64,000 bases of DNA. It comes from Flavobacteriales bacterium. Lineage in GTDB: Bacteria; Bacteroidota; Bacteroidia; UBA10329. The stretch spans positions 27,799 to 91,798 of the forward strand of contig JAIOYP010000012.1 of NCBI GenBank assembly GCA_021741155.1, written 5' to 3'. This document shows, in pieces, positions 14,367 to 52,652 of this stretch (position 1 is the first letter of the stretch; each line of letters begins with the position of its first letter). Made by a program: the position numbers and the translations under genes. Below the pieces are notes generated by a model, which saw only the letters and a program-made list of their open reading frames with translations, was not told where the DNA came from and ran no database searches.

Positions 14367-14440
14367 CGCTTTTTTGGTCTAGGCTTTAGTGACAGGGCAA
14401 TCCTGTTTTATTCACTAATCATATTGAAAACATATTCTTT

Positions 14441-14520
14441 AGCCACAGATGCACGGATTTCCACAGATTGTACACGGATAATCATTTTTTTTCTCTGTGA
14501 AAATCCGTGCATCTGTGGCT
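14441..14520. repeat. palindromic dispersed repeat, 'agccacagat' family, copy 1
   Basis: Two 26-base arms (starting AGCCACAGATGCACGG and ending in its complement) match at 25 of 26 positions across a loop of about 28 bases. It lies between the TPR/SpoIIE gene and the mutase stop. Related, more decayed copies are at 28484-28562 and 61847-61910, all followed by a TTTCAT sequence. Confidence 0.85.
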
Positions 14521-14588
14521 ATTTCATGTTAATTTTTTAAGACCTGATTTCCATAGGCTTAGTGTAACCTGCGGCTTATACCGAAGTT

Positions 14589-16712
14589 TCATTCAGATAG
14601 TTGCCTCAATATTTCCTGGGCGGCTTTGGCAATTACAGTACCTGGTCCAAAGACAAACGACACACCATTATCAAATAAGAAATCGTAATCCTGATGTGGA
14701 ATGACACCACCAGCAACAACCATAATGTCTTCTCTTCCGTAGTTTTTCAATTCTTGGATAACGGCAGGAACGAGCGTTTTATGCCCACCAGCAAGAGAAC
14801 TAACTCCAACGATGTGAACGTCATTCTCCACCGCTTGCTTTGCCACTTCTTTTGGTGTTTGAAAGAGCGGTCCTAGGTCCACATCGAAACCAATATCGGC
14901 AAAGGATGTGGCAATAACCTTAGCCCCACGGTCGTGACCATCTTGTCCCATTTTGGCAACGAGAATACGCGGGCGTCTTCCCTCCTGCTCTGCAAACGCA
15001 TCGGCTGCTGCTTGAGCCGCTATAAAATTTTCGTTCTTTTTCACTGCTCCTGAATATACTCCTGAAATGGAACGCACTACTGCTTTGTATCTTCCGTACT
15101 CTGCTTCTAATGCATCCGATATTTCGCCAAGTGTGGCACGCTTTCGTGCGGCATCTACAGCCAATTCAAGCAAGTTTCCTTTTCCTGATTTGGCACTTGC
15201 AGTTAATGCCGTCAATGCCGCTTTCACGTCTTTGTCGTTCCGCTTTGCTTTCACCTCTGCCAAACGCTTCAGTTGTCCTTCACGAACCGCGTTATTGTCC
15301 ACCTCTCGGATATCCAATTGTGCTTGTTCGTCCAACTGATAGCGATTCACGCCCACAATTACTTCTTCTCCACTGTCAATTCGTGCTTGTTTTCGAGCAG
15401 AAACTTCTTCAATCCGCATTTTAGGTAAACCCGTTTCAATGGCCTTTGCCATTCCTCCGAGTTCTTCCACTTCCTGAATCAGCGTCCATGCTTTTTCACA
15501 CAGTTCATTGGTTAGTTTCTCTACGTAGTATGAACCGCCCCAGGCATCAATGCTTTTGCAGATGTCGGTTTCGTTCTGAATGAAGAGTTGGGTATTCCGA
15601 GCTATTCGAGCTGAGTAATCGGTTGGCAAGGCAATCGCCTCATCCAAGGAATTGGTGTGTAAAGATTGCGTACCGCCAAAGACAGCAGCCATTGCTTCAA
15701 TGTTCGTCCTCACCACGTTATTGTACGGGTCTTGCTCTGTGAGACTCCAACCAGAGGTTTGGCAATGCGTTCGTAACGCCATGCTTTTCTCCAACGTTGG
15801 ATTGAATTGCTTCACGAGTTTGGCCCATAGTAAGCGACCAGCACGCATTTTGGCAACTTCCATAAAGAAGTTCATGCCTATGCCCCAGAAGAAGCTGATT
15901 CGCGGAGCGAAATCATCAATCGCCAATCCTGCCGCAAGACCTGTTCGGATGTATTCCAAGCCATCGGCAAGCGTATACGCCAGTTCAATATCGGCAGTGG
16001 CTCCTGCTTCGTGCATATGGTAGCCCGAAACACTGATGCTGTTGAATTTCGGCATCTTCTCAGCCGAATACTTAAAGATATCTCCCACGATACGCATGCT
16101 TTGCGCTGGCGGATAGATGTAGGTATTCCGCACCATAAACTCTTTGAGAATGTCATTCTGAATGGTGCCTTCCAGAAGTTCTGGCGCCACGCCCTGCTCT
16201 TCTGCTGCTACAATGTAAAATGCCATAATTGGAAGCACCGCCCCATTCATGGTCATAGAAACGGACATCTTATCCAACGGAATCTCATCGAAGAGGATTT
16301 TCATGTCCTCCACCGTATCAATGGCAACACCTGCTTTGCCTACATCGCCCACTACTTTCTCGTGGTCGGAGTCGTAGCCACGGTGAGTAGCTAAATCGAA
16401 GGCTACGGAAAGTCCTTTCTGCCCTGCTTTAAGGTTAGCGCGATAGAAGGCATTGCTTTCTTCTGCGGTGGAGAAACCCGCATATTGGCGGATAGTCCAC
16501 GGGCGGCTAACGAACATAGAACCGTAGGGTCCGCGCATGAAGGGCGCCAAGCCAGACACGAAATCCAGCTGCTTTAAGTCTTCAATCTCTGAGGCATAGT
16601 TATCTGCGCTTACGCGGATGCCTTCGGGTGTATTGAAGAACTCGCCTGTTTCGGTCGAGTCTAAATCGGATGGTTTTAAATAGAACTCGGTGTTCTTAAA
16701 ATCTGGCTTCAT
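14589..16712 (-). CDS. scpA: methylmalonyl-CoA mutase large (catalytic) subunit
   Basis: This enzyme interconverts methylmalonyl-CoA and succinyl-CoA using adenosylcobalamin. The 707-residue protein has the N-terminal substrate-binding TIM barrel (for example [20 protein letters not shown] near 72, and the [14 protein letters not shown] block). The C-terminal B12 domain carries the lower-ligand motif [10 protein letters not shown] near residue 590 and GVSSLAGGH near 640. Length and motifs are those of a complete active subunit. The small subunit lies upstream on the same strand but is separated by 308 bases of tandem repeats. In heterotrophs this step links propionyl-CoA to the TCA cycle, and the propionyl-CoA carboxylase involved consumes bicarbonate. 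Confidence 0.97.
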
Positions 16713-16721
16713 TGTTTTTCT

Positions 16722-17020
16722 TTTTGCACAGAGAAAGATTGAGTTTTAATAGAGATACACAGAGAGGATTGATTCTCTGTGTGTCTCTCCTTCTCAATAT
16801 TCCCTCTGTGTAATCACTTCTTTTCTTTTGCACGGAGAAAGATGGAGTTTTCACAGAGGAACACAGAGAGTACTGATTCTCTGTGTATCTCTCCCTCTCA
16901 ATTTTCCCTCTGTGTAATCACTTCTTTTCTTTTGCACGGAGAAAGATGGAGTTTTCACGGAGGGACACAGAGATACTATTTCTCTGTGTATCTCTCCTTC
17001 TCAATTTTCCCTCTGTGTAA
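16722..17020. repeat. three tandem 104-bp hairpin repeats between mutase genes
   Basis: Units begin at 16722, 16826 and 16930, each opening TTTTGCAC(A/G)GAGAAAGAT, with an exact 104-base period for the first two steps. Each unit contains a central inverted repeat (CACAGAGA...TCTCTGTG) nested in a longer outer one (CACGGAG...CTCTGTG), so each can fold into a hairpin. The third unit is slightly shorter and ends at the small-subunit stop. A decayed half unit is found at 41845-41887. Confidence 0.9.
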
Positions 17021-18337
17021 TTAATTCTCCTCCTCCACTTTATCGTTCGACTCTTCAAATGGCGATGGAAACTTGTTTGTTCCCACCAACACGCGCGCTA
17101 GGCTTTCTACTTCATCGTAATACGCTTGGTCTGACTTGGCGAATTCATCCTCCAAGAAACCATTGGCAGCACAAACGGAATAACCGCCCTTTTCTTCAAT
17201 CTCTAGGAAGAAATCCCATGCCTTTTTGCCCAGTATATCGGTGAGGTGCTCTACGTAATAGCTTCCAGCGGCTGGGTCGATGACCTGATTGAGCCTTGCT
17301 TCCTCTTTCATCAAATGTTGCGTGTTGATGGCCATTCTATCTGCCAACTGAGGTTCGTCTTGTCTGAACGGATTGATGGTAAGGCTATCCACTCCACCCA
17401 ATACGGCACTCATTGCCATCGCGTTTTCGCGCAATAGATTAACGGGAGTATCTAAACTGCTCAAGTGGCGCTCGCCTGTTTGGGCATGCACCCACGTTGA
17501 CCAACGCTTAGAAGCCGCTCCGTGCTGCTGCATGACGCGTGCCCACAAAAAACGCATCAAGCGGAACTTAGCCACTTCTGGCAAGAATGAACTTCCAATG
17601 GCTAGGCTGAACCCGATGTTGCCTGAAATCTGCTCGAACGAAAGACCATTTTTACGAAGTCCGTTCACCAACTCATTTCCCCAGGCGAGGGTAGTACCCA
17701 ATTGCTGAGAAATGGTAGCGCCTTTCATGTAGAATTGTGTACAACTGAGCCCTACACCGCCAAAGCCGTTGCGGTCGTTATTGATGATGATGGACGTGGC
17801 CAAATCAACATTAATGTGCTCGAACCAGAGACCACCTCCACCACCATACGAAGGAATACTTTCTCCTTTAACCAAGCTTTTTAGCCTGAGCCAATTGAAG
17901 TAATCGGCCTGAAACCGAACGGTATTGTATGCATTGGCGAAGCTGATAGAAATTGCGCTCGTTACGATGCCATTAAACAGCACGGCAAACTCATCTCTGG
18001 CAATGTCGTGCCCGTTGAGGTCGATGGTAATGGCAGTTGCGCCTAACGAGAGTTTATGCTGTAGTTCGGTGTTTGCATCTTCCAGATTCTCTAATCGGAT
18101 ATCGGCACAAATCAACCATTCGTTGTTTTGCTGATTGAAGCGCAACGGACGGATGGTGGTTCCGAACATGGGCAGTTTCTCGGTCTCGGAACGGAAGTAG
18201 GCGGGCTTGGCCTGAAAGCCATCGCTCGGCAACCACTGATTGAGTTGGTCAATGTCTGCTCCTTTTAGCTCTTTCTCGGTGAGCTTTTTCCAATCTGCCA
18301 GCTTGGGCGCTTTGAATTCTTCGAATAGTTGTGACAT
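17021..18337 (-). CDS. mutA: methylmalonyl-CoA mutase small subunit
   Basis: This is the non-catalytic partner of the large subunit in heterodimeric mutases. The 438-residue protein shows the mutase barrel fold signature (YGGGGGLWFEHINVDLATS, GFSLAIGSSFLPEVAKFRLM, VDSLTINPFRQDEP, IDPAAGSYYVEHLTD). It ends shortly after the barrel and lacks a C-terminal B12-like domain, whereas the longer small subunits of other bacteria are near 620 residues. The gene precedes the large subunit on the same strand. A TACATTTG promoter box lies only 4 bases before the ATG. The identity is secure. The shortened form seems normal for this lineage, but I cannot verify that here. Confidence 0.93.
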   Translation of the reverse strand: MSQLFEEFKAPKLADWKKLTEKELKGADIDQLNQWLPSDGFQAKPAYFRSETEKLPMFGTTIRPLRFNQQNNEWLICADIRLENLEDANTELQHKLSLGATAITIDLNGHDIARDEFAVLFNGIVTSAISISFANAYNTVRFQADYFNWLRLKSLVKGESIPSYGGGGGLWFEHINVDLATSIIINNDRNGFGGVGLSCTQFYMKGATISQQLGTTLAWGNELVNGLRKNGLSFEQISGNIGFSLAIGSSFLPEVAKFRLMRFLWARVMQQHGAASKRWSTWVHAQTGERHLSSLDTPVNLLRENAMAMSAVLGGVDSLTINPFRQDEPQLADRMAINTQHLMKEEARLNQVIDPAAGSYYVEHLTDILGKKAWDFFLEIEEKGGYSVCAANGFLEDEFAKSDQAYYDEVESLARVLVGTNKFPSPFEESNDKVEEEN

Positions 18338-18349: not shown

Positions 18350-18359
18350 ATAGGAAAAA

Positions 18360-18416
18360 GGGATTAAGGATTAGGGATTAAGGATTAGGGGTTAGGGGTT
18401 AGGGGTTAGGGGTTAG
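18360..18416. repeat. TTAGGGG-type short tandem repeat
   Basis: The stretch contains four to five consecutive GGGGTTA heptamers preceded by related GGATTAA/GGATTAG units. The G-runs of three or four could form a G-quadruplex on the plus strand. It lies just upstream of the mutase small-subunit promoter. Confidence 0.85.
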
Positions 18417-18712: not shown

Positions 18713-18740
18713 TTGCTTTTGTCAGGGAGACAAACAGAAA

Positions 18741-18908
18741 CACAGAATTCACAGACCTGCTGGCAGGCAGGGGTTTGCACAGAGGAGAAACAAAATTTTC
18801 TGTGTCCTTTCTGTGAATTCTGTGTTTCTGTGGCTAAAAATATGTTCTTCCCCATTTCTCAATCCCTAGCTTGCTGTCAAAACCGACCATTTGGTGAAAG
18901 TTGCGAAC
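18741..18908. repeat. dispersed repeat, copy A (pair with 52396-52539)
   Basis: An inverted repeat CACAGAATTCACAG...CTGTGAATTCTGTG is followed by about 70 bases of non-palindromic tail (CTAAAAATATGTTCTT ... GTTGCGAAC). The same order and tail occur at 52396-52539 at high identity. Copy A carries an extra small palindrome, CCTGCTGGCAGGCAGG, inside the left arm region. Confidence 0.85.
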
Positions 18909-18936
18909 GCGAGAAATAGTTTTATGAAAACACGTA

Positions 18937-28483: not shown

Positions 28484-28562
28484 AGCCACAGATTCACTGA
28501 TTTTCACAGATGAAAAGGATTATTTCAGTAAAAAATCTGTGCTAATCTGAGCATCTGTGGCT
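28484..28562. repeat. palindromic dispersed repeat, 'agccacagat' family, copy 2
   Basis: The outer arms AGCCACAGATTCACTGA and the complementary ...CATCTGTGGCT flank a decayed centre. The same outer arms and following TATTTCAT occur at 14441-14520. Confidence 0.75.
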
Positions 28563-40798: not shown

Positions 40799-41758
40799 AT
40801 GGCGGTACCCTTTCTTGATTTTGAAAGTGATATTCAAGAGTTAGAAGAACAACTCGAAAAATCGCGTGCCATTCAGGAGAAAGGCAAAGTAGATATGAGC
40901 AAGCATATCGAAGAACTTGAAGTTAGCATCAAACTGCGGCTACAAGAGATTTACAGCAGCCTTACTCCTTGGCAGCGCGTGCAAGTGGCACGACATACAA
41001 GCCGACCTTACACGCTGGCGCACATTCGCTCATTGACAGACAACACATTCGTGGAGTTATTTGGCGACCGAACGGTGAAGGACGACAAAGCAATGGTGGG
41101 CGGTTTCGGAAGTATTGATGGGAAAACCGTCATGCTTATTGGACAGCAAAAAGGCATCAACACCAAAATGCGTCAGTACCGAAATTTCGGAATGGCGAAT
41201 CCTGAAGGCTACCGTAAGGCGTTGAGGCTTATGAAATTGGCCGAGAAATTCAACAAACCGATTATCACGTTTATTGATACCCCAGGAGCTTTTCCTGGAA
41301 TTGAAGCTGAAGAGCGCGGTCAAGGTGAAGCCATTGCAAGGAACATCATCGAAATGATGCAACTGAAAGTGCCTATTATCTGTGTAATTATCGGTGAAGG
41401 CGCTTCTGGCGGTGCACTCGGAATTGGTATTGGGGACAAGGTTTTCATGTTGGAAAACACATGGTATTCGGTGATTTCTCCTGAGAGTTGTTCTACCATT
41501 CTTTGGAGAACACGTGACCAGAAAGAAGTGGCTGCAGAATCGTTGAAGTTGACGCCAGAAGATTTGCTTGAGCAGAAACTCATCTCGGGTATCATCCCTG
41601 AACCGCTAGGTGGAGCACACCGAGATCCTGAAACCACTTTCACCAACGTGAAAAAGGAGATTAAGAAGCATCTGACGCGACTGCACAACATGGATCCGCA
41701 GGAGCGTATTGATAAAAGAATTGAGAAATACAGCCAAATGGGTGTTTTTAATGAATGA
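40799..41758 (+). CDS. accA: acetyl-CoA carboxylase carboxyltransferase subunit alpha
   Basis: AccA with AccD moves the carboxyl group from biotin to acetyl-CoA, giving malonyl-CoA for fatty acid synthesis. The 319-residue protein shows the N-terminal helical region ([20 protein letters not shown]) and the crotonase-like core: [38 protein letters not shown] and [18 protein letters not shown]. Length matches the family. The biotin carboxylation step of this complex consumes bicarbonate. TAAATTTG (40786-40793) lies 5 bases and TATCTTCG (40773-40780) 18 bases before the ATG, so the 5' leader is short. Confidence 0.97.
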
Positions 41759-41802
41759 TTTGCGATTTACGATTTACGATTTGCAATTTGCGATTGATTT
41801 GA
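41757..41802 (+). repeat. short tandem repeat of GATTTACGATTTGC units
   Basis: Units of 7-8 bases (GATTTGC, GATTTAC) recur six times directly after the accA stop, which itself is the first TGA. Similar strings occur at 26937-26975 and 27960-27990. The type is common between Bacteroidota genes. Confidence 0.65.
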
Positions 41803-44551: not shown

Positions 44552-44619
44552 CAGCCCCTCCAACCTTCCGCCTAAGGCGGAGAGGCTTTGCTGATAAACG
44601 AACCACAATAAAACAGCAC

Positions 44620-44719
44620 GTCATTGCGAGGAACGAAGCAATCTTTCACTAGTCGAGTAAGAGATTGCTTCAGTTCCTTCGATAAACTCAGGACAGGCAG
44701 TTCCTCCTTCGCAATGACG
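44620..44719. repeat. palindromic 'cgtcattgcgagg' repeat carrying the next gene's start codon
   Basis: CGTCATTGCGAGGA opens and TCCTTCGCAATGACG closes a 100-base palindrome with inner arms around AGTTCCTTCGATAAACTCAGG. The right end supplies the ATG of the M1 peptidase (CGCAATGACGG). Related fragments occur near 18665. Confidence 0.85.
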
Positions 44720-49784: not shown

Positions 49785-50873
49785 CTACGATTTCACTTGA
49801 AAATTTAGCTTAATGAATGACTGCCCGTCTTGCCTGTAAACATGGCCATAACCCATTTTTGAGCCAGAAGGATTGTCGAGGCGTGCAGAACGCATGAGAT
49901 AAGATTTAAACTTATTGAAGTCAATTACATGATAGCACAATATTTCAGAATCCTGTTTAACCACAATCAGACCGCCCACCACTTGATGTATTCCAGACCA
50001 AGGAAAGGCTGATGTCATACCGAGAGCAGACTCTATTAAAAAGTTAATTATTCGGTATTCATAGAAATCATGACTTTTCAAATTATAACCCATAGGATTC
50101 TCCGCATTTAAGCACTCAATAACCTCAGTAATCCAGGTTATTCTAGCTGTATATTTCTTCTTCACGATGAAGGCCATTATTTCTGGTAAATCGCTATCAA
50201 TCATTTGCAGATTGAGCTTGAACGTTTCACCTTGATACCCATGATATTTAACGGTATATCCAAGTTCTTCCAACATACAAACGCGCCTAATGTATTTATG
50301 TCCTGTCGTTATATCATTTACCATATTCAAATGCTCCTCAGAAATTGGATGCCCATTGGAGTCGGTAATTGAATAAATAATATTAGTGGTTGGATTTGCA
50401 TTAAATAAAGTAGGGTCACTACCTAAGAAAGATTTGATACTATACTCTTGTCTGGATTGAACTCCATGGGTTGGGTCATAAACAAGTAGATTAATATCTC
50501 CTTTGTTAGCTGCGTCTTGACTTACCTTATGGACTTTCCATTGGGAAAGTTCATTTTCCAACTCAACTTCGCCCGAGCTAGTTCCTTTTCCGTCTTGAAT
50601 CCTAACAAGAAGTTTAGATGCAATTCGAGTAGCCTCAGATATGGGAATGGAGTAATCAGCGTTTTCTCCACTAACATCAATAATGTTGATATTTCCCTCT
50701 GACCGTACATCATAACGGTACGTTCCAATATTTTCTTTTCTGAAGGCAGAACGTATCTCCACAAACTCTTCAGTGCGAGCTAAATTTTGATCTGCAGAGA
50801 ATAACTTGCCATCGGCAAGGAGCTTAAAGAATACGTAGAGTTCGCTCCATTCTCCTTTGTTGCCTTTCAACAT
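49785..50873 (-). CDS. HpaII-family type II restriction endonuclease
   Basis: The 362-residue protein opens MLKGNKGEWSELYVFFKLLADGKLF, the N-terminus I associate with HpaII-family restriction enzymes. A central NKGDINLLVYDPTHGVQSRQEYSIKSF segment carries acidic and lysine residues plausible for a PD-(D/E)XK-type site. It overlaps the cytosine methyltransferase gene by 7 bases. If HpaII-like, the target would be CCGG; that is inference. Base usage looks more A+T-rich than the flanking housekeeping genes, which would fit acquisition. Confidence 0.8.
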   Translation of the reverse strand: MLKGNKGEWSELYVFFKLLADGKLFSADQNLARTEEFVEIRSAFRKENIGTYRYDVRSEGNINIIDVSGENADYSIPISEATRIASKLLVRIQDGKGTSSGEVELENELSQWKVHKVSQDAANKGDINLLVYDPTHGVQSRQEYSIKSFLGSDPTLFNANPTTNIIYSITDSNGHPISEEHLNMVNDITTGHKYIRRVCMLEELGYTVKYHGYQGETFKLNLQMIDSDLPEIMAFIVKKKYTARITWITEVIECLNAENPMGYNLKSHDFYEYRIINFLIESALGMTSAFPWSGIHQVVGGLIVVKQDSEILCYHVIDFNKFKSYLMRSARLDNPSGSKMGYGHVYRQDGQSFIKLNFQVKS

Positions 50874-52084
50874 ATCTTATTAATTATCTCTTTAGCCGTT
50901 GCCCTAATCGCAGGCACCGCCACCGAATTTCCAAACTGTTTGTAAGCCGAAGCATCGGCAACAGGGATTACATACTTATCAGGATACCCCTGTAAACGCG
51001 CCCATTCTCTAGGTGTCATTTTCCGAATACCCTCACGATTGACAGTTCCTTTAATATGTGTGATTGGCTCAAAAGTGGTTAGTCTGTCATCAACAACCAG
51101 ATTTCTTTCTCTTCCCATACCTCCAACAACAATTGCACTCGCAATGCCGTCATCTGGAATTATGGCATAACCAAAACCATTTCCCTTACTCTCGTGCCGC
51201 GCCTTGTGATTACGTAGCGTTTTCAAGTATTGGGTAGATAGATAGTACTTGACCGAAACCTCTTTCTCTTCCTTCACATATTCAAAAGCAACTGACTTGT
51301 CTATCGGCTCTGGATATCCAAACGTTTCAGCTGATTTCTTGTCCAAGAAACCTACAATAAAGATGCGCTCTCTGTTTTGAGGTACGCCAAAGTCCTTTGC
51401 ATTCAGAACCCTTGGCTCTGGCACAAAATAACCGAGGTCTTCCCGTAATGTGTGAAGAATTGTTGCTAAGGTTTTACCCTTGTCATGGTTGGTCAATCCT
51501 TTCACATTCTCCAAGAAGAACGCCTGAGGTCGATGTTTCTTTAGAATCTGAGCCACATCGAAGAAAAGCGTTCCTCTTGTGTCTTCAAACCCTCCACGCT
51601 TACCAGCAATCGAAAACGCTTGACATGGAAATCCAGCGCACAACACATCGAACGATTCGGGAATGAAATCCTTGTTGCTTTGCTTCGTTATATCTCCAAA
51701 CGGCACTTCACCGAAATTGGCCTCATACGTCTTCTTCGCTTGATGGTCCCATTCGCTCGAATACATACACTTGCCTCCTAGGCTTTGCATAGCCAAGCGA
51801 AACCCTCCAATTCCAGCGAATAAATCAATAAATGTAAACTTCGGATTAGCAGGCGGAGGAAAAGGAATATCCCATTCAATTGGCATTTTCAATTGAAAAG
51901 CATCGGACGCTAGTTTGCTGACGTGCCCATTCATTGAATGAACATAAATAGCAGCATCTTCAGCAAATACATTAACCTTTTCCTCTCGGCTAGATTGTAA
52001 ATGATGTGTAAGAATCGCCAACTCCTCCGACTCCGTCTTCACGACATTGATACCGAGTTCTTCACGAATCTTTGAATACTTCAT
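50867..52084 (-). CDS. DNA (cytosine-5) methyltransferase of the type II system
   Basis: The enzyme methylates cytosine at C5 to protect the host from the adjacent endonuclease. From the ATG at 52084 (track start is a TTG 4 codons earlier) it has 405 residues. The motifs in order are I FIDLFAGIGGFRLAMQSLGG, IV catalytic Cys in CAGFPCQAFSIAGKRGGF, VI ENVKGLTNHD, VIII QNRERIFIVGF and X KQFGNSVAVPAIRATA. The N-terminal 85 residues before motif I are longer than in many relatives. Its 3' end overlaps the endonuclease gene, ensuring methyltransferase is made first. Confidence 0.95.
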   Translation of the reverse strand: MKYSKIREELGINVVKTESEELAILTHHLQSSREEKVNVFAEDAAIYVHSMNGHVSKLASDAFQLKMPIEWDIPFPPPANPKFTFIDLFAGIGGFRLAMQSLGGKCMYSSEWDHQAKKTYEANFGEVPFGDITKQSNKDFIPESFDVLCAGFPCQAFSIAGKRGGFEDTRGTLFFDVAQILKKHRPQAFFLENVKGLTNHDKGKTLATILHTLREDLGYFVPEPRVLNAKDFGVPQNRERIFIVGFLDKKSAETFGYPEPIDKSVAFEYVKEEKEVSVKYYLSTQYLKTLRNHKARHESKGNGFGYAIIPDDGIASAIVVGGMGRERNLVVDDRLTTFEPITHIKGTVNREGIRKMTPREWARLQGYPDKYVIPVADASAYKQFGNSVAVPAIRATAKEIINKIC

Positions 52085-52395
52085 CTTGTCTTTCAATTGT
52101 ACACAAAGAAAAAGATTGAAACCGTAATCTATCTACGCCAGAAAAAACTTATCCCAATATATTTCCCCTACCTCCTCAAAATGACTATAAACAGCTATTG
52201 CAGCTTGTGAAAAGACTCAATAAATTCGTGTTAATGTCCAACCCGACCCCGTGCGAAAGCAACCGCCACCGAATGAGCAGGGTAAACCTGTGGCTTCGCA
52301 AGAGGGTGCGCGAACTATTGACCCCAAGCTTCATAAAAAACTTTCCCCAAACGTCCAGACTAATACCAGAACGGACATAAAAAGGCCACAGAAAA

Positions 52396-52539
52396 CACAG
52401 AATTCACAGAGGTTTTCACAGAGGAGAAACAAAATTTTCTGTGTCGTTTCTGTGAATTCTGTGGCTAAAAATATGTTCTTACCCATTTTTTAAACCCTAG
52501 CTTTCTGTCAAAACTGACCATTTTGGGAAAGTTGCGAAC
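52396..52539. repeat. dispersed repeat, copy B (pair with 18741-18908)
   Basis: CACAGAATTCACAG ... CTGTGAATTCTGTG and the following tail CTAAAAATATGTTCTT...GTTGCGAAC match copy A in order and sequence, lacking only its extra inner palindrome. It occupies the 568-base gap upstream of the methyltransferase. The other part (52085-52395) shows no gene I can support. Confidence 0.85.
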
Positions 52540-52652
52540 ATGCATTAAAGGGAAAATAGAAAAAGGAGAAATGATAGTCGATTGTCCGTTTGTTTTCCCA
52601 AAAGGTCAATAATGGAAACAAATAGGTTTAGAATACTCCGCTAATCAACTAA

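Follow-up and report, generated by a model that had tools for sequence, protein, structure and literature searches.

A tandemly triplicated palindrome between mutA and mutB of a Flavobacteriales bacterium is probably an ORF-less, MITE-like derivative of GxxExxY gene cassettes

Why should the two genes for the subunits of one enzyme be separated by three near-identical hairpin repeats? Both genes lie on the minus strand, mutA first and then mutB, in the 64,000-nucleotide stretch of a Flavobacteriales draft assembly that we analyzed (the window; the genome that holds it is called G000 here). The large subunit of methylmalonyl-CoA mutase is encoded by mutB (14589 to 16712; 707 amino acids), which matches NCBIfam PRK09426/TIGR00641, and the small subunit by mutA (17021 to 18337; 438 amino acids), a short and diverged form that matches TIGR00642 with a score under the curated cut-off; the identity of the pair as a mutase, given in the original prediction from the sequence of the window, is thereby borne out. 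We infer that mutA and mutB share one transcript.

TRF called a single array at this site, at 16716 to 17028 (period 104, 3.0 copies, 90% matches, 0% indels); it occupies all of the 308-bp gap between the genes (16713 to 17020), as expected from the earlier description of three tandem hairpin repeats that split the operon and fill the space between the two subunit genes. Each unit contains a palindrome of about 90 bp within the period of about 104 bp, with nested arms (outer CACAGAG, middle TTGAG, and inner AGAGATACACAGAGA), again as described. Unit 1 (16717 to 16820) adjoins mutB and has the best conserved arms of the three, with 29 Watson-Crick and 3 wobble pairs in the plus-strand fold; unit 2 lies at 16821 to 16924, as placed by TRF, arm, and folding analysis; and unit 3 (16925 to 17028) abuts the TAA stop codon of mutA, its final 8 bases overlapping the mutA 3' end. 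The period of 104 was said to be exact and is not quite so: left halves are spaced 104/104 and right halves 104/103, because unit 3 is one loop base short. Units 2 and 3 are the most similar (96/103 identical positions), followed by units 1 and 2 (91/104) and units 1 and 3 (86/103). No reading frame crosses the array. Ahead of mutB, on the minus strand, is an A-rich leader (16713 to 16727) that reads GCAAAAAGAAAAACA and then ATG, with an unpaired probability mostly between 0.8 and 0.97.

The original prediction proposed that these repeats form three consecutive hairpins in the transcript and thereby set the MutA:MutB ratio or stabilize one mRNA segment. Every unit does fold better than its shuffled versions on both strands, with z scores for units 1, 2, and 3 of −5.8, −2.6, and −2.8 in sense and −7.7, −5.0, and −5.5 in antisense. 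Three consecutive hairpins result in the sense transcript when pairing is restricted to local spans (−93.4 kcal/mol), whereas in the unconstrained minimum (−100.6 kcal/mol) unit 1 pairs with unit 3 instead. Strong local folding of the sense strand is what selected intercistronic control would predict, and paired columns vary less between units than unpaired ones (7/64 versus 13/46), a pattern also compatible with hairpin selection. The position of unit 3 directly against the mutA stop recalls E. coli, in which REPs that lie ≤15 nt from a stop codon reportedly reduce translation (PMC12306157). Set against this, differences between units are almost never compensatory (one cell only), and antisense folds better than sense. 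Candidate intrinsic terminators (a GC-rich stem plus a T run on the operon strand) were not above background, with 3 sites versus 2.4 expected in shuffles; at the sole terminator-like site within the array, ATCTCTATTA follows the stem and there is no T tract, unlike a terminator or attenuator. A search of the array against Rfam yielded no family at the gathering score, only sub-threshold matches to miRNA hairpins.

The same junction in other members of the genus argues further against control of the subunit ratio. We read it in each member in which both mutA and mutB were found; all genomes compared are draft assemblies, from which the copy numbers of the array are taken. In two genomes (G001 and G002), the genes share a 4-nt ATGA overlap with no insert, as they do in a named record whose mutB is identical to that of G002. 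G008 carries one unit of the CACAGAG type seen in G000, approximately 72% identical to each of the three G000 units. A palindrome of another type, CGCAAAG, is found in G006 (one copy) and in G004 (within a 258-bp insert), and the 69 bp found there in G005 are unrelated in sequence. The number of units thus runs from 0 (G001 and G002) through 1 (G008) to 3 (G000). Across the wider class, most intact mutA-mutB pairs are −8 to +11 nt apart, and a tight junction therefore appears likely to be ancestral. Since relatives have no unit, one unit, or another palindrome, the array looks to be a lineage-variable insertion rather than a conserved device for setting the subunit ratio. The variable junction (which may be a bare 4-nt overlap), the lack of a terminator signal, the single compensatory cell, and the presence of similar elements at many unrelated junctions leave ratio control without support as the reason for the array, and we regard a selected intercistronic function as unlikely. 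Simple descent fails to explain why G008 and G000 both have the CACAGAG type, because G008 falls outside the clade of G000, G004, and G006 (support 100/99 in the rpoB tree and 94/98 in the mutB tree, with the branching inside left open); judged from these trees, separate insertions or loss followed by replacement or conversion could each account for it.

Related elements are scattered through the genome. The pattern ACACAGAG-N20-50-CTCTGTG, searched genome-wide on both strands with overlapping matches counted, occurs 17 times in G000 and 13 times in G008 but at most twice in any other genome of the genus, and its reversed control has no match. The same kind of search with a strict pattern found no solo palindromes of the CGCAAAG type in G000. 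Within the window, solo palindromes lie downstream of mutB (14440 to 14521; related iteron type CACAGAT/CACGGAT), upstream of mutA (18734 to 18831; CACAGAA/CACAGAG type), at 28484 to 28562 (CACAGAT type), and at 52385 to 52465 (CACAGAA/CACAGAG type). The two CACAGAA-type palindromes remain alike for about 80 bp past the palindrome (18734 to 18920 and 52385 to 52580), suggesting a longer repeat unit. A gene for a C-5 cytosine DNA methylase is found at 50867 to 52096. The median distance of solo palindromes to a stop codon is about 20 nt. Tandem growth of such elements appears to be recurrent, because one end of a cassette described below (the upstream end of L086) is a 3-copy array of 86 bp, and because G004 has a 128-bp array of 3.9 copies (L165, 6817 to 7309) with pieces of the CTCTGTG element just upstream of its mutA.

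The proposed longer relatives of the array units are cassettes that carry a gene of the GxxExxY family (TIGR04256, PF13366). Five such genes are present in each of G000, G008, and G004, and the family occurs in 150 of 297 Bacteroidota genomes sampled, with up to 12 copies per genome. We compared the 200 bp upstream of each locus with the reverse complement of the 200 bp downstream by local alignment: 44 of 48 GxxExxY loci scored above the threshold of 12, compared to none of 33 control loci (mutB, 0/27; rpoB, 0/6) and 3 of 93 ordinary genes from the genus; in these counts, loci within a genus have sites in common, and not every one is independent. At least two of the three positive ordinary genes adjoin these elements. 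Cassette ends typically consist of 3 to 4 copies of a 7-mer (CACAGAG, CGCAAAG, CGCGGAT, or CTATGAT) with a spacing of about 8 to 11 nt. Halves of the array units align with the terminal inverted repeats (TIRs) of three cassettes, one in G000 itself (L087) and two in the same genus (L085 and L086), with scores of up to 23 to 27; the maxima of 200 shuffles were 11 to 18 and were exceeded in most comparisons. Against other TIR types (L092 and L102), the scores were near background and did not go beyond the shuffles. The match of unit to cassette TIR is partial, and half-by-half similarity does not tell the orientation of the units relative to the cassettes. G004 has a matching cassette (L086) yet few solo copies.

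GxxExxY cassettes sit at operon stop/start junctions, abutting the upstream stop codon: the median distance from stop to TIR is 1 and 11 nt, and the distance to the downstream start is 11 or 36 nt. Among the 41 cassettes with both neighbors readable and strands oriented, 37 have both neighbors co-directional with the cassette ORF (17/17 in the genus and 20/24 in the phylum). The share of solo palindromes between co-directional genes (18/23) is close to the share of co-directional pairs among gene pairs in general (37/47), so strict sense orientation is established only for cassettes that bear an ORF. The ruvB-queG junction provides a second comparison of occupied and empty sites: it holds a GxxExxY cassette in G008, G004, and G005 and is empty in G000 (9 nt), G001 (6 nt), and G003 (9 nt). 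Comparison of occupied with empty sites revealed no readable target-site duplication at either mutA-mutB or ruvB-queG. In four genomes, one particular aldehyde-dehydrogenase-like gene pair contains a GxxExxY cassette (L089, L092, L093, L095, and L098); in G000 this pair has the cassette twice, with different iteron types. Wobble pairs in oriented cassette TIRs show no strand bias (p = 0.90, 0.58, and 0.18); hence we gave no weight to the stronger antisense folding of the units and dropped strand-specific folding as a signal.

Ends of this kind also appear farther afield. Within Bacteroidota they are present in Bacteroides finegoldii and Bernardetia, and outside the phylum a Sphingomonas cassette with clear TIRs separates fabD from fabG. 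Palindromes of this sort occur near a GxxExxY gene of Gemmatirosa, the ends are weak in Treponema, and inverted ends were absent from the one Fusobacteria record and the one Prevotella record examined.

The S23 four-helix-bundle protein is known from intervening sequences (IVSs) of 23S rRNA. Genes for S23 (PF05635) have iteron TIRs as well (26/28), and they too occupy operon junctions, with both neighbors in sense (23/23), at a median of 4 nt from the stop codon. In the PF05635 loci of the genus (L134 to L163), the iteron TIRs have a 7-nt period, for example TTAGGTA or GCAATTA. Because iteron TIRs flank S23 genes too, GxxExxY need not be the mobilizing agent.

These S23 loci bear on another reading, in which the elements act like IVSs at the level of RNA: they would be cut from polycistronic mRNA, for instance by RNase III, making insertion into an operon harmless, and the GxxExxY and S23 ORFs would be passengers or helpers. 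It overlaps with the explanation we prefer and differs in the level of action. The Coxiella IVS, termed selfish, offers a parallel, since its 28-bp TIR stem is cut by RNase III (PMC4990558), and the likeness extends to a small ORF within an inverted-repeat stem, sense orientation to the host transcript, and sporadic distribution. The elements here differ in that they lie in operon junctions and not in rRNA (the array itself is between mutA and mutB), and the matching cassettes carry GxxExxY rather than S23. Moreover, the TIR pairs lack a wobble bias toward the sense strand, and solo palindromes have co-directional neighbors only at the background rate. We consider action as an IVS-like RNA element improbable.

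If the GxxExxY protein acts on the ends of its own cassette, protein and ends would be expected to co-vary, and they do. Among 40 cassettes, protein identity correlates with TIR similarity (rho = 0.51; rho = 0.48 for pairs <70% identical), a value reached in 0 of 2,000 permutations. The ending of the iteron also follows the protein subfamily: 6/6 LGYGF proteins go with GAT and 29/31 LGPG proteins with GAG (Fisher, 1.2e-5). Shared descent of cassette and gene would give the same pattern. The protein has about 125 residues, and D72 and E82-x-K84 are invariant in 25 proteins; Pfam places PF13366 in the PD-(D/E)XK nuclease superfamily. In a structure model with a pLDDT of 93.9, the nearest solved folds are SSO0001, AdnAB, and lambda exonuclease, none of the matches reaching an E value of 0.001. 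We found no sequence match in the PDB and none to the PADLOC defense models. The papers found in an open-access library describe no mobile element with GxxExxY (only a protein family of unknown role), and the motif strings retrieved unrelated papers only, so that novelty is provisional.

Taken with the cassettes, the array is probably an ORF-less, MITE-like derivative of a GxxExxY cassette that inserted at the mutA stop/mutB start and was tandemly triplicated. This reading draws on ends, placement, presence/absence, and co-variation, from which we infer movement itself. A MITE-like palindrome would have inserted at the tight junction and then triplicated through slippage or unequal crossing-over; its halves would correspond to the TIRs of cassettes that carry GxxExxY between inverted arrays of a CACAGAG-like iteron. 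The cognate GxxExxY protein, carried by cassettes in G000, may recognize these TIRs, cut DNA or RNA, and mobilize both forms, ORF-less copies arising via ORF loss and moving in trans. Insertion would be tolerated because the mRNA gains up to three hairpins and an A-rich open leader in place of the ATGA overlap, and any change in the MutA:MutB ratio would be a side effect. The insertion could affect mutA/mutB expression in this way, since it removes the ATGA overlap and adds structure.

Like MITEs, which are 70 to 300 bp long, have TIRs but no coding capacity, lie beside genes, and form hairpins if transcribed, each unit is a noncoding palindrome of about 90 bp, and its ends are common to longer, protein-coding relatives (L085, L086, and L087). 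Unlike MITEs, these relatives encode a PD-(D/E)XK-family protein and not a known transposase, their ends are arrays of 7-mer iterons, and full cassettes sit in sense in operon junctions. No target duplication was readable at the array. REP/BIME elements moved by a RAYT transposase are also short extragenic palindromes near stop codons, in tandem clusters that take in flanking DNA; a REP is defined as a 20- to 40-bp palindrome with a GTAG or CGTC tag (PMC3733652). The array units are larger, at about 90 bp, with nested iterons and no such tag, and their full-length relatives carry GxxExxY. Because the single Y1_Tnp gene of G000 has no such palindrome beside it, we discarded a RAYT/REP origin, which we judge highly improbable. 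Elsewhere in the window, at 44619 to 44719, the inverted repeat CGTCATTGCGAGGAACGAAG does resemble a REP pair with CGTC tags as described in PMC3733652.

More generally, and tentatively, small mobile cassettes may form a hitherto undescribed class that extends beyond Bacteroidota, with the GxxExxY genes as its autonomous members. Its cassettes would insert in sense at operon stop/start junctions, have iteron-array inverted ends matched to their PD-(D/E)XK protein, and give rise to ORF-less hairpins like the triplet; a parallel class would carry S23. If so, the widespread GxxExxY family would likely supply the mobility or maintenance gene of these cassettes, many common palindromes of the CACAGAG and CGCAAAG types would be their gene-less offspring, and intercistronic hairpins in these bacteria would be viewed primarily as insertions and only secondarily as regulators. 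With 0, 1, and 3 units, the mutA-mutB site provides a natural series for gauging the effects of insertion on a two-subunit enzyme. Two heptamer arrays in the window resemble the TIRs of S23 cassettes: AGGGATT, repeated 8 times just upstream of mutA (18351 to 18416), and GATTTGC, repeated 5.6 times at 41757 to 41795.
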